Shown here in pieces: positions 9,237 to 60,322 of a stretch of 64,000 bases of DNA. Location: NCBI GenBank assembly GCA_015062445.1, contig SUUQ01000001.1, forward strand, positions 62,001 through 126,000, read 5' to 3'. This stretch comes from Alphaproteobacteria bacterium. GTDB lineage: Bacteria; Pseudomonadota; Alphaproteobacteria; Rs-D84. Numbering within the stretch: position 1 is the stretch's first letter; each line of letters starts with the position of its first letter. A program made the translations under genes and the position numbers. Below the pieces are notes generated by a model. The model worked only from the letters and a program-made list of their open reading frames with translations. It had not been told where the DNA came from and did no database searches.

Positions 9237-9264
9237 AAAAAGCCGGCAAATGCCGGCATTTTAT
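9236..9264. terminator. Terminator between accC and the HTH gene
   Basis: GCCGGCA AA TGCCGGC stem with T-rich flanks on both sides. Confidence 0.7.
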
Positions 9265-9449
9265 TTCACAAATTCCAGATGATGTTGGGTGGCAATAATG
9301 AACATTATTAACTGGTATATGGTGGGACGCCTGTTACGATAAATCATATGACGATATTCCGATTCTGTTATACCCATGGCATTGCATATGTCAATCACAG
9401 ATAAATTGCGCAGTTCTCGTATCATTTCCAGTTCTTGGCCAATTTTCAT
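9261..9449 (-). CDS. Small helix-turn-helix protein (copy A)
   Basis: 62 residues from the ATG at 9449 (MKIGQELEMIRELRN), preceded by GGGGTGTG. The middle, NLSVIDICNAMGITESEYRHMI, has the layout of an XRE-type helix-turn-helix, so DNA binding is likely but unproven. A paralogue at 17772-17957 shares the MKIG start, E-IR, CN, the E-EY spacing, R-P-T-YQ and IMF. Both lie just downstream of members of the same structured RNA family, on the same strand, past its terminator. This pairing suggests the RNA controls the HTH gene or the two act together. Confidence 0.7.
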   Translation of the reverse strand: MKIGQELEMIRELRNLSVIDICNAMGITESEYRHMIYRNRRPTIYQLIMFIIATQHHLEFVK

Positions 9450-9476: not shown

Positions 9477-9647
9477 AAAAAAAACCACCATAATGGGGTG
9501 GTTGGAGGTTAGAACTTTGCACAGTAGTATGCTCAGCGGTTATTCAATATATTCACCGCCCTCCAACCACAGGTTGGAGCAATTAACGTCTGCGCAGACG
9601 ACTACTGGGCGAGCGTTCTAATCTCGCATAACGGTTTCCCCATTACA
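9477..9647 (-). ncRNA. Structured switch-like RNA, family member A
   Basis: About 171 nt from a sigma70-type promoter to an intrinsic terminator. Predicted order, 5' to 3': P1 (GUAAUGG/CCGUUAU); P2 outer (GAUUAGAAC/GUUCUAACC) and P2 inner (CAGUAGU/ACUACUG), both long-range; P3 (CGUCUGCGCAGACG); P4 (CUCCAACC UGU GGUUGGAG); P5 (GCGGU/ACCGC, 14-nt loop GAAUAUAUUGAAUA); then the terminator AACCACC/GGUGGUU. The 3' strand of P4 (GUGGUUGGAGG) can instead pair perfectly with CCUCCAACCAC, which overlaps the terminator's 5' arm. That is attenuator or riboswitch logic. Not a family I can name. Fold was done by eye. Confidence 0.75.
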
Positions 9648-9653
9648 ATTGGT

Positions 9654-9705
9654 ATTATATCCCATGATAAATATTGTTTGCAATTAAAAATTTCTTTGTT
9701 ATAAT
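9654..9705. promoter_or_regulatory. Divergent promoters sharing one TTGCAA box
   Basis: The palindrome TTGCAA (9678-9683) serves as -35 both ways: rightward to TATAAT at 9700-9705 (16-nt spacer) for tRNA-Val, and leftward to TATAAT at 9659-9654 (18-nt spacer) for RNA A. Confidence 0.6.
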
Positions 9706-12928: not shown

Positions 12929-13088
12929 AGACATTTGTAGGTATACGGCCTTGAACAAGCCATACAACCATAAAATTTACATTTGTCCCGATCTGTTGGT
13001 CGGGATGTCGTATGTCGCAAGGCATGCGAGGTTTTGGTTGTAAAACTTGTTCAACTCCCGACCACTTTACAAATGTGGTCTTTTTTTT
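12929..13088 (+). ncRNA. Structured switch-like RNA C (variant)
   Basis: About 160 nt ending at terminator GACCAC/GUGGUC plus eight Ts. Long-range stems UUGAACAAG/CUUGUUCAA and ACAACCA/UGGUUGU enclose hairpin UCCCGAUC UGUU GGUCGGGA and hairpin UCGUAUG/CAUGCGA. The strand UGGUCGGGA (12997-13005) can also pair with UCCCGACCA (13056-13064), which covers the terminator's 5' arm. The sequence before the terminator (AACTCCCGACC) matches the AAC-YCC-RACC pattern of RNAs A, B and D. It lacks their 14-nt loop and a clear P3. Confidence 0.65.
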
Positions 13089-13107: not shown

Positions 13108-13278
13108 ATGGGAAGATTAATAGACGAGATTTCCAAACCACCAATTCACCCATACAAAATGTTACTGCGACAGCAATATATTGATTTACAATATATTCAC
13201 AAGAAACTGGGGGAAATTATAACTGTTTTATCATCGATTCAGCCATGGCTGGAAAATCAGTCAAAACAACAACAATAA
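13108..13278 (+). CDS. Small protein of unknown function
   Basis: 56 residues from the ATG at 13108, with AAGG 8 nt upstream. Begins MGRLIDEISKPPIHPYKM, then a helical stretch rich in Q, L and I that looks amphipathic or coiled. It starts 19 nt after the terminator of RNA C, so its transcription would depend on readthrough there. No family recognised. Confidence 0.55.
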   Translation: MGRLIDEISKPPIHPYKMLLRQQYIDLQYIHKKLGEIITVLSSIQPWLENQSKQQQ

Positions 13279-17107: not shown

Positions 17108-17170
17108 AAATCACAGCCCTTTTTGTCATTCCCGCGTATGGGATGTTTGAATATGCACCCCCTTTTTTTT

Positions 17171-17197
17171 GTCATTCCCGCGCAGGCGGGAATAGGG
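17171..17197 (+). repeat. Left inverted repeat of the GIY-YIG element
   Basis: 27 bp containing ATTCCCGCGCAGGCGGGAAT, itself palindromic; exact reverse complement of 17566-17592. The ATTCCC-N8-GGGAAT form resembles the dRS3 repeats of Neisseria. Confidence 0.9.
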
Positions 17198-17234
17198 ACT
17201 TGAAAAATTTTGTATACCCTTGTACTATTTTGAT

Positions 17235-17564
17235 ATGAAGGATTATAATTTCTGGGTTTATATACTGTTTGATGAACGGGCCAAAGGAACGTATATTGGT
17301 GTGACGAATAATCTTGAACGGCGTATGCATGAACATAAAATGGGATTGGATGACGGATACACAAAAAAAAAGAATATTCACAAACTGGGGTATTTTGAGT
17401 ATTACAAATATGTAGACAATGCGATTGCGCGTGAAAAACAATTAAAGAAATGGAATCGGGCATGGAAATATCGACTGATTGAAACAATGAATCCAAATTG
17501 GGTTGATTTGGCTGATGATTTAGAGAAAAACATTGAATTTTGGAAAAATAAAGAAACTGAATAG
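17235..17564 (+). CDS. GIY-YIG family nuclease (YhbQ/UPF0213-like)
   Basis: 109 residues forming a single GIY-YIG catalytic domain: VYILFDERAKGTYIGVTNNLERRMHEH holds the two Tyr strands and the catalytic Arg, and the downstream helix has AREKQLKKW. Such single-domain proteins are often of unknown function; some are homing or repeat-associated nucleases. The promoter TTGAAA-17-TACTAT lies just upstream. The gene fits tightly between 27-bp inverted repeats, the right one starting 2 bp after its stop, which supports a mobile role. Confidence 0.88.
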   Translation: MKDYNFWVYILFDERAKGTYIGVTNNLERRMHEHKMGLDDGYTKKKNIHKLGYFEYYKYVDNAIAREKQLKKWNRAWKYRLIETMNPNWVDLADDLEKNIEFWKNKETE

Positions 17565-17565
17565 A

Positions 17566-17592
17566 CCCTATTCCCGCCTGCGCGGGAATGAC
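17566..17592 (-). repeat. Right inverted repeat of the GIY-YIG element
   Basis: Exact reverse complement of the left repeat at 17171-17197. Confidence 0.9.
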
Positions 17593-17690
17593 AAAAGATA
17601 TTGGTGCATAAACAAACCTAAACCCTGCGCGGGAATGACAAAAGATATTGGTGCATAAACAAACCTGAACCCTGCGCGGGAATGATAAAT
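17581..17690 (+). repeat. 47-bp tandem repeat
   Basis: CGCGGGAATGACAAAAGATA units begin at 17581 and 17628, with a partial third at 17675; one base differs between the full copies. Confidence 0.85.
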
Positions 17691-17702
17691 AAAAGGAGTA
17701 TA

Positions 17703-17744
17703 CCCGCAGGGATTATGGTGGTGCTGCGCCGGATTAAAAATTGA
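17703..17744 (+). pseudogene. mnmG: Stranded former 3' end of mnmG
   Basis: The 26-nt repeat plus CGGATTAAAAATTGA encodes ...AGIMVVLRRIKN and a stop, in the MnmG frame. It has no start of its own. It reads as the original tail displaced by the insertion. Confidence 0.65.
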
Positions 17745-17748
17745 TAAA

Positions 17749-17774
17749 AACACCGGTAAACGCCGGTGTTTTTA
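17749..17774. terminator. Terminator between the mnmG remnant and the HTH gene
   Basis: CACCGG TAAACG CCGGTG with T runs on both strands. Confidence 0.7.
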
Positions 17775-17957
17775 TATATCCAACGCACGACATGTATTTA
17801 CAACAAACATTATTTTCTGGTATGTCGTTAAGGGCTTTCGTCCAATTATTATTTGATGATATTCCAATTCTGTTTCAATTGATAAAATATTACACATAAT
17901 AAATATAGGAATATTTTCCGATATGCGTATCTGTTCAATTTGTGCACCAATTTTCAT
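17772..17957 (-). CDS. Small helix-turn-helix protein (copy B)
   Basis: 61 residues from the ATG at 17957 (MKIGAQIEQIRISEN), preceded by GGGGCAAGA. Paralogue of the 9261-9449 protein with shared MKIG, IR, CN, E-EY, R-P-T-YQ-IMF and a final T. The helix-turn-helix is more degraded in appearance than in copy A. It lies directly downstream of RNA B on the same strand. Confidence 0.68.
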   Translation of the reverse strand: MKIGAQIEQIRISENIPIFIMCNILSIETELEYHQIIIGRKPLTTYQKIMFVVNTCRALDI

Positions 17958-17982
17958 TCTTGCCCCACGATATAATATAAAT

Positions 17983-18156
17983 AAAAAACCGCATTTGATT
18001 ATCAAAAGCGGTTGGAGTTCAAACACTATCAAAGCGAATAGCGGGTTTATTCAATATATTCACCACACTCCAACCGCATCATGGTCGGAGTTTTTTACGC
18101 CACCTCTGGCGCGCTTTGAAGGGTGTTTGATACCCGCGCCAGGAATTCCCCAGCGC
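17983..18156 (-). ncRNA. Structured switch-like RNA, family member B
   Basis: About 174 nt. Same order as RNA A with different bases: P1 GCGCUGGGG/UCCUGGCGC; P2 outer UCAAACAC/GUGUUUGA; P2 inner UCAAAGCG/CGCUUUGA; P3 CGCCA GAGG UGGCG; P4 ACUCCGACC/GGUUGGAGU; P5 GGU/ACC with the identical 14-nt loop; terminator AACCGC/GCGGUU. The P4 3' strand GCGGUUGGAGU pairs perfectly with ACUCCAACCGC at the terminator. Stem bases differ from A but pairing is kept in P1, P2, P3 and the antiterminator. This covariation supports a real RNA. Confidence 0.78.
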
Positions 18157-18162
18157 ATTCGT

Positions 18163-18191
18163 ATTATAATGATAAAAATATCAAAACGCAA
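18163..18191 (-). promoter_or_regulatory. Promoter of RNA B
   Basis: TTGCGT, 17 nt, TATAAT on the minus strand. Confidence 0.65.
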
Positions 18192-59400: not shown

Positions 59401-59613
59401 GAATCCAAAGGGATTTGGGTTTGGGACCTTAGAAAGTCCAGTCATTTCGGTGCAAATGCATCGTAATCCGATGTTATCGGTGTTTTTTGCACCGTTATTT
59501 TTACCCCACGAAATATGTCGGGGTGCTGTTGTTATATGTTGAAGGCAACAGGAATCGTTAAATGACTGATTTTTCTAACACCCCGACCGTCATTTCCCAA
59601 TGGCGGTCTTTTC
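59401..59613 (+). ncRNA. Structured switch-like RNA, family member D
   Basis: About 210 nt. Order: P1 GAAUCC/GGAUUU; P2 outer UUAGAAA (59430-59436)/UUUCUAA (59572-59578); P2 inner AGUCAUUU/AAAUGACU; P3 CGGUGCAAA/UUUGCACCG with an inner hairpin; P4 ACCCC-CGA/UCGGGGU; P5 CUGUUG/CAACAG with a 14-nt loop UUAUAUGUUGAAGG. Terminator GACCGTCATT/AATGGCGGTC follows. The P4 strand GUCGGGGUG (59517-59525) can also pair with CACCCCGAC (59579-59587), which overlaps the terminator. The loop agrees with RNA A at 9 of 14 positions without gaps. Confidence 0.75.
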
Positions 59614-59635: not shown

Positions 59636-60322
59636 ATGAGGTTTTTATTATTTGTCTTTCTTTTTTTGGGGGCACATGGGGGCGCGTTGGCCGCACTGTG
59701 TGATGATGGGTATTATCCAGTGGGTGGTGTGTGTACAGAATGTGGTTATGGATATTATTGTCGTGATGATATAAGAAACAAATGTCCCGATGATACAACA
59801 GATTGGATTGGAATATTTGGTGCAAATGGTCATACTGTGCCAGCGATTGCCACCTGGGCGGAATCTGGGAATGTCAGATATACAACATGTTGGCTGATAA
59901 CACAATGTCGTTCGATGTTGGATGTTTATATGACAGGGGGAACGTTTCATACGGAATGTCCGTATAATGTATCTCGTGGGGATTATTATTGTGATTCCAA
60001 GTTGTGGTACCAGGCAAATCCAGGATATTATTTGTCGGGGTATTGGTGGTCAAGTTATGAAGATTGGTATTATTATGTAAAGCCGTGTACTAATGCAATT
60101 CCGGAATACTCGCATTACAGTGGTGCAGGAACACCAAACACTAATGATTGTCCGTGGGAATGTGATAACGGTTATGCCCAACCTGTTGGACGGAACGAAT
60201 GTTTGCCACTGTGTGCAGCAGGTATAACAACATTGAATACCAGTACAGGACTGAAGTATAATCTGTGGCAAGACCGTCAGACAGTCCCATCATTGGTTGT
60301 GCAATATAATAGAATGATGTGA
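59636..60322 (+). CDS. Secreted Cys-rich protein, possibly truncated by an in-frame TGA
   Basis: 228 residues with signal peptide ending near GGALAA. The mature protein has many Cys, Tyr and Gly (DDGYYPVGGVCTECGYGYYC, NPGYYLSGYWW, CPWECDNGYAQPVGRNECLP), a layout of disulfide-knotted surface proteins. After the TGA at 60320-60322 the same frame stays open for 26 more codons to another TGA at 60401-60403. That stretch continues in the same style (YANMIPGVADNSVNILFDG). Starts 23 nt after the terminator of RNA D, so readthrough there would control it. Confidence 0.7.
   Translation: MRFLLFVFLFLGAHGGALAALCDDGYYPVGGVCTECGYGYYCRDDIRNKCPDDTTDWIGIFGANGHTVPAIATWAESGNVRYTTCWLITQCRSMLDVYMTGGTFHTECPYNVSRGDYYCDSKLWYQANPGYYLSGYWWSSYEDWYYYVKPCTNAIPEYSHYSGAGTPNTNDCPWECDNGYAQPVGRNECLPLCAAGITTLNTSTGLKYNLWQDRQTVPSLVVQYNRMM

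Follow-up and report, generated by a model that had tools for sequence, protein, structure and literature searches.

RNA copies and HTH genes in the window

The window, which is the whole stretch of 64,000 nt that was analysed, contains two modules in which an RNA precedes a gene for a small HTH protein. Both modules lie on the minus strand, with their parts in equal order, and are about 8.5 kb apart. Their features and those of two further RNA copies are the following.

17982..18136, minus strand: candidate RNA switch copy B, the main element, with a1 in hairpin P0, b1, P3, P4/P7, P5, P6 with b', a' and the terminator (covariance model R1, 130.9 bits, E 9e-36)
18163..18168, minus strand: -10 box TATAAT of copy B, 32-33 nt 5' of the model start, which is the most frequent distance among family members
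18124..18129, minus strand: a1 strand CAAACA of copy B in the P0 loop, partner of a' (P1), from covariation
18113..18118, minus strand: b1 strand CAAAGC of copy B, partner of b' in the P6 loop (P2), from covariation
18083..18090, minus strand: segment 1 of copy B, CTCCGACC, the 5' arm of P4
18067..18075, minus strand: segment 2 of copy B, GGTTGGAGT, partner of segment 1 (P4) or segment 3 (P7)
18010..18018, minus strand: segment 3 of copy B, ACTCCAACC, the 3' arm of P7, whose last 4 nt double as terminator 5' arm
17983..18013, minus strand: intrinsic terminator of copy B, AACCGC..GCGGTT TTTT, read from the sequence
18001-18076, minus strand: match of R3, the phage/plasmid-only model, within copy B
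17772..17957, minus strand: ORF of a 61-aa XRE/Cro-type HTH protein, 24 nt after copy B
9478..9626, minus strand: candidate RNA switch copy A (R1 101.9 bits, E 3e-27; R3 match at 9492-9568)
9654..9659, minus strand: -10 box TATAAT of copy A, from sequence and family statistics
9261..9449, minus strand: ORF of a 62-aa XRE/Cro-type HTH protein, 28 nt after copy A
12946..13086, plus strand: divergent third RNA copy with segments CCCGA / TCGGGA / CTCCCGACC (R1 39.7 bits; R2 55.4 bits)
13108..13278, plus strand: 56-aa ORF of unknown function behind the third RNA copy
59422..59613, plus strand: divergent and weak fourth RNA copy (R2 26.3 bits, E 0.0003)
59636..60322, plus strand: ORF of a secreted Cys-rich protein behind the fourth RNA copy

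The original prediction held that the RNA and the HTH gene each occur twice, on one strand and in one order, with divergence in both parts. This is confirmed by the R1 scores of 130.9 and 101.9 bits, which are seed scores as both copies are among the 8 copies from the source genome that make up R1, and by the 40% identity of the two proteins (61 aa and 62 aa). In each copy a TATAAT box precedes the model start by about 30 nt, and an intrinsic terminator is present. The prediction missed the third and fourth copies, which stand ahead of other genes; the third is not an R1 seed, but is one of the 54 seeds of R2, a refined covariance model. Comparison within the genome also finds the RNA stretches ahead of unrelated genes. 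The two divergent copies belong to a low-scoring subclass (genome G000, L046-L052; window 12946 and 59422), several members of which have CCCGAC/GTCGGG-type segments, and RNAs of this type stand before NucT-like nucleases and secreted Cys-rich proteins.

The ORF at 17220-17564, in the region 17120-17743 of the window, presumably resembles a GIY-YIG-type endonuclease. Repeats of the form 'cccgc..cgcgggaatgacaaa' flank this ORF, and at about 17704-17727 there is a repeat of a stretch (gcagggattatggtggtgctgcg) similar to the 3' end of the mnmG-like ORF upstream. The region 17120-17743 is possibly an insertion.

The 62-aa HTH protein of copy A is a minimal XRE domain (AF2 pLDDT 93) whose nearest PDB folds are DdrO, restriction controllers and SinR, while its Pfam scores are weak. 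An additional sensor or toxin domain was considered and rejected, as the Pfam, AF2 and PDB comparisons give the XRE fold only. The source genome has a third copy of this HTH gene, again behind an RNA. Homologues in relatives, which the prediction proposed to check, have the RNA immediately upstream in 32 of the 33 loci examined in the genus, the exception being a partial match in a 66%-complete genome (G722). In G004 (L026 / L357), an HTH match has an in-frame TAA despite the upstream RNA copy.

The idea that RNA and HTH protein form one system therefore stands for their co-occurrence at HTH loci and falls for their exclusiveness, because most RNA copies precede secreted, other XRE or nuclease genes, and genome G010 carries 46 RNA copies and no HTH protein of this family. 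RNAs that lack an HTH gene are also what the prediction itself had named as evidence against it. For the same reasons the HTH protein is rejected as an obligate partner, and its gene is more likely a target of the RNA. The suggested toxin-antitoxin-like pair finds no backing, as no toxin-antitoxin partner was found and the RNA and HTH gene are not always together.

The prediction also placed both modules beside tRNA genes and took this to fit integration. The proximity is real, with tRNA-Thr 122 nt from the 5' side of the copy B RNA and tRNA-Val 92 nt from that of copy A, and 18 of 143 copies are within 300 nt of a tRNA compared with 3.9% of random positions in the same loci, which is a moderate enrichment. 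Integration is unsupported and was rejected: integrases use the 3' end of tRNAs, both window RNAs are on the tRNA 5' side, and no junction is seen at a tRNA 3' end. The accC / tRNA-Val / RNA-HTH arrangement is also present in further species (G004 and others), which fits vertical inheritance.

Distribution, promoters and downstream genes

At E < 1e-4, R1 finds about 16 RNA copies in the source genome, and it is positive in 51 of 59 genomes of relatives, with up to about 46 copies per 1-Mb genome. Of 385 Alphaproteobacteria genomes sampled, 24 have an R2 match, and the positive genomes outside the order have sizes of 0.9-2.4 Mb. A phylum-wide sample of 299 genomes gives 2 matches, both in this genus. 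Where pattern matches fall in named records, these are metagenome-assembled Alphaproteobacteria, many of them sampled from the gut, and include Candidatus Enterousia intestinigallinarum and avistercoris. The genus is placed in the order Rs-D84 and has genomes of about 1 Mb (PMC12306168), and the host bacteria seem to be known only as metagenome assemblies. Rfam at gathering threshold reports tRNAs alone in the examined loci and no family for the RNA, and a literature search found no paper describing such an RNA in Enterousia or Rs-D84. Three IMG/VR contigs classed as viral (L294-L296) bear an Enterousia-type RNA copy (92.9-113 bits).

Placement was analysed in 143 copies, 121 of which have no further RNA behind them (non-tandem). 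A typical copy has its own -10 box and an intrinsic terminator, usually followed by an ORF. The -10 box is at the expected place in 92% of copies and in 23% of controls, which are random positions in the same loci and not matched intergenic sites. An ORF starts at most 70 nt after the RNA in 112 of the 121 non-tandem copies, mostly at 14-37 nt, and a strict criterion (ATG, Shine-Dalgarno and at least 40 codons) is satisfied behind 102 of 120 copies compared with 5.8% of control positions. As the start codon is so near the terminator, transcription of the gene should depend on read-through.

Most downstream products are secreted or surface proteins, and by eye many of the products seem to have signal peptides; the others are XRE regulators or nucleases. 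They include several XRE proteins, OmpA/beta-barrel proteins, NucT-like nuclease, LPS glycosyltransferase, lipid A phosphatase-like PAP2 and trypsin-like protease. Outside the order, the genes encode lipoproteins, outer membrane proteins, pilin-like proteins and glycosyltransferases, as named from sequence. The RNA also forms tandem arrays of 2 to 6 copies. One six-copy array in G010 (L133, 2599-3901, minus strand) stands ahead of one XRE gene, and most of its copies have a recognisable promoter of their own, while some terminators are degenerate.

Covarying helices and phage relatives

The alignment of 145 copies has strong covariation for helices P1-P6 and for the alternative helix P7. APC-corrected mutual information, calculated from 118 copies (effective number 107) without structure input, recovers P1 (a1:a', up to z 32), P2 (b1:b'), P3, P4 (segment 1:2), P5, P6, the terminator and P7 (segment 2:3), and also the non-nested pair 6-96. 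P7 and P6 were absent from the model structure used for the alignment. P7 has 93.6% paired cells and 103 double changes (30 in shuffles), and P4 has 94.1% paired cells and 108 double changes; P0, P6 and the pair 6-96 likewise exceed shuffles. Segment 2 is able to pair with both of its partners in 839 of 938 triplet cells, and P7 is complete (9/9) in 26 of 28 copies outside the order, whose sequences are widely varied.

P7 competes with hairpin P4 and with the base of the terminator, and it is mutually exclusive with the full terminator in Enterousia-type copies, since segment 3 shares 4 nt with the terminator 5' arm. The RNA is, as in riboswitches, a conserved structured leader with terminator and antiterminator alternatives. 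Among nested folds, the predicted stability of the P1/P4 fold (fold A) exceeds that of the P7 fold by about 10 kcal/mol (median), so the default state is probably off. Unpaired loop residues are conserved as GAAUA..AAUA and CACUAU, and P7 could coexist with P1/P2 as a pseudoknot, as in a ligand-binding aptamer. The a/b addresses are distinct in 46 of 47 cases in G010 and in 17 of 17 in the source genome; these distinct pairs fit orthogonal antisense addressing, and neutral drift of paired strands fits them equally.

Permissive Rfam scans repeatedly return sRNA-Xcc1 (RF02221), in register, with P7 enclosing P5 and P6. The scores are 45.5 (L319, the best), 44.1, 39.0 and 36.6 bits outside the order and 35.2, 34.9 and 33.2 bits for Enterousia copies, and one copy alone gives 35.2 bits with E 7e-5. 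None reaches the RF02221 gathering score of 53 bits, so the RNA is not a formal member and is filed as a homologous branch. A search with the RF02221 consensus gives phage and plasmid members, nine of them confirmed with 56-86 bits; a chromosomal stretch similar to this consensus is also found in 217 of 5,426 complete E. coli genomes. Eight of the nine phage/plasmid loci are annotated, and there the distance from the RNA to the start of the next gene is 36-55 nt. In 6 of 8 this gene is Ant, KilA-N, BRO, or a short ORF ahead of Bro-N, as listed here.

Haemophilus phage Aaphi23 and Pasteurella phage Pmp3: Ant
Acinetobacter phage 4316 and Kingella plasmid: KilA-N
Pseudomonas plasmid: BRO-family
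Azospirillum: short hypothetical ORF, then Bro-N
Moraxella phage Mcat15 and Nitratidesulfovibrio plasmid: hypothetical

The core-only covariance model R3, built from these nine phage/plasmid sequences alone, gives 41 matches with E up to 0.03 in 217 kb of RNA loci, and all 41 are at the RNAs described here, including both module copies of the window with E about 5e-4. R2 does not recognise the phage members as wholes; the probable cause is the larger distance between their halves, and the link therefore required the core-only R3. In 7 of 9 members, a hairpin with a loop complementary to a' lies 70-130 nt upstream, and behind it comes a segment with complementarity to the P6 loop, while shuffled upstream sequences give an expectation of 0.09 of nine. 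Searched singly, neither the a segments nor the loop segments reach significance at most of the phage-member loci, while the joint test of order, spacing and hairpin is significant. The 5' half with a1 and b1 is thus shared, and RF02221 omits it. Sequence comparison firmly supports the homology of the RNA family with the phage/plasmid members of sRNA-Xcc1.

The core shared with sRNA-Xcc1 is P7 enclosing P5 (AAUA..AAUA) and P6, followed by a' and the P7 3' arm. While RF02221 covers only this 3' part and the literature terms sRNA-Xcc1 a trans-acting sRNA, the Enterousia-type RNA has a terminator directly before the gene and an integral and close 5' half, and reaches 46 copies in a genome, most of them ahead of genes for surface and secreted proteins. 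sRNA-Xcc1 sits upstream of symE in Xanthomonas (PMC12444791), and five clustered or tandem copies are reported in Xylella (PMC12189769).

Gifsy-1 IsrK / STnc1160 is a leader with a terminator, complementary upstream and downstream segments, two folds, a downstream antirepressor gene and a short trans RNA (PMC4825925). The leader, terminator, complementary segments and alternative folds are shared with the RNA described here, whereas IsrK regulates translation of orf45-anrP and its target is located after the terminator (PMC4825925). In P4 CI/seqA-seqC pairing causes termination (PMC4825925), and the immunity of such systems is sequence-specific (PMC12197685). With these and the P1/P7 c4 RNA (RF01695, c4-a1b1 RF03163), the RNA shares an antisense that is complementary to a target in its own leader: its antisense segments match a target further upstream in the transcript that carries them, from the covariation of P1 and P2 and the layout of the seven phage/plasmid members. 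A c4 system would also have a second target, a2/b2, near the ribosome-binding site of the gene. In the RNA described here, only 14-37 nt separate the terminator from the start codon. The isrK model (RF01394) gives no match to this RNA, nor does c4 (RF01695) at E <= 5, <= 1 or <= 0.5 depending on the scan, and c4-a1b1 (RF03163) gives one sub-threshold match (L201, 20.6 bits).

Candidate mechanism and its alternatives

We hold with moderate confidence that the RNA is an exapted, cis-acting and self-complementary antisense transcription attenuator of c4/CI/IsrK-like type, which descends from or shares ancestry with the sRNA-Xcc1-type RNAs. This reading is favoured by the layout, which resembles that of c4, CI/seqA and IsrK/STnc1160, with target segments upstream, antisense downstream and a regulator gene behind. 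A terminator-like stretch between b1 and P7 in the phage members, which means that their wiring differs, counts against it, and so do the lack of an RF01695 match, the equal fit of neutral drift to the distinct a/b pairs and the conceivable P7 and P1/P2 pseudoknot.

The homology, both pairings, the promoter, the terminator and the position relative to genes come from the analysis itself, while regulated read-through, its direction and a signal in trans are what we infer here. The promoter would transcribe the 5' target part first, with a1 in the P0 loop and then b1, followed by the antisense part, with P7 enclosing P5 and P6, b' in the P6 loop, and then a'. In fold A, a1-b1 would pair with a'-b' (P1, P2) and segment 1 would hold segment 2 (P4), leaving segment 3 free; this would let the terminator form and keep the gene, 14-37 nt further on, switched off. 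Fold B would pair segments 2 and 3 (P7) at the expense of the lowest base pairs of the terminator and turn the gene on. The balance may be tipped by an antisense in trans, which would be switch RNA set free from a copy with the same a/b type, or by co-transcriptional timing. In these alphaproteobacteria, the element would have multiplied and come to control surface, secreted and XRE genes.

The main rival, which we consider unlikely, is a metabolite- or ion-binding riboswitch with P0-P2, P5 and P6 as a pseudoknotted aptamer and P7 versus P4/terminator as the expression platform. The leader position, promoter, terminator, mutually exclusive helices, tandem arrays, conserved unpaired residues and non-nested pair 6-96 all agree with it, and the high copy number before surface genes resembles the regulons of c-di-GMP riboswitches, which occur in many copies per genome before surface genes. 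However, the Rfam riboswitch models give no match, and the relatives of the RNA are phage RNAs ahead of antirepressor genes, with a self-antisense layout and no known ligand. The c-di-GMP riboswitch in particular is rejected for Enterousia, as it gives no Rfam match and GGDEF domains are absent from the five Enterousia genomes tested, which makes c-di-GMP an unlikely ligand.

A leader controlled by a trans-acting protein, either an RNA-binding antiterminator or an XRE protein that stabilises P7, has a small chance of being correct; many targets encode XRE proteins, so feedback is conceivable, but no single protein family seems to track all copies and genomes without this HTH protein keep many RNAs. 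Small RNAs that act independently in trans, in line with the description of sRNA-Xcc1, and whose downstream genes are incidental, would agree with the own promoter and terminator of each RNA, with tandem members that have own promoters and in part degenerate terminators, and with the five clustered copies in Xylella (PMC12189769). This is highly improbable, as nearly every non-tandem copy has an ORF start 14-37 nt past its terminator, whichever of the unrelated gene families and lineages it is found in. So short a gap leaves hardly any space for a second promoter, so read-through must matter, and the released RNA may additionally act in trans. The RNA and HTH gene as one unit, for autoregulation, as toxin-antitoxin or as a mobile module at tRNA genes, is almost certainly incorrect. 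The pairing at HTH loci and the mild tRNA enrichment speak for it, but most RNAs precede other genes, G010 lacks this HTH protein, and the tRNAs are on the wrong side for integrase targeting at a position conserved between species.

The self-antisense attenuator reading predicts which genes the RNA controls, and through its pairing rule (a1:a', b1:b', P4 versus P7) the mechanism can be tested with ordinary reporters. It also reinterprets sRNA-Xcc1, as the Rfam entry seems to cover no more than the 3' half of a self-complementary leader, one frequently located ahead of antirepressor genes. A bolder extension, tentative and rather doubtful, is that a domesticated phage-immunity antisense RNA became dozens of orthogonal, individually addressed switches for single surface or regulator genes, possibly with stochastic surface variation, in reduced-genome gut bacteria without c-di-GMP signalling. 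If the attenuator reading is true, a phage-type antisense RNA would be among the most used regulatory elements of a bacterial lineage.
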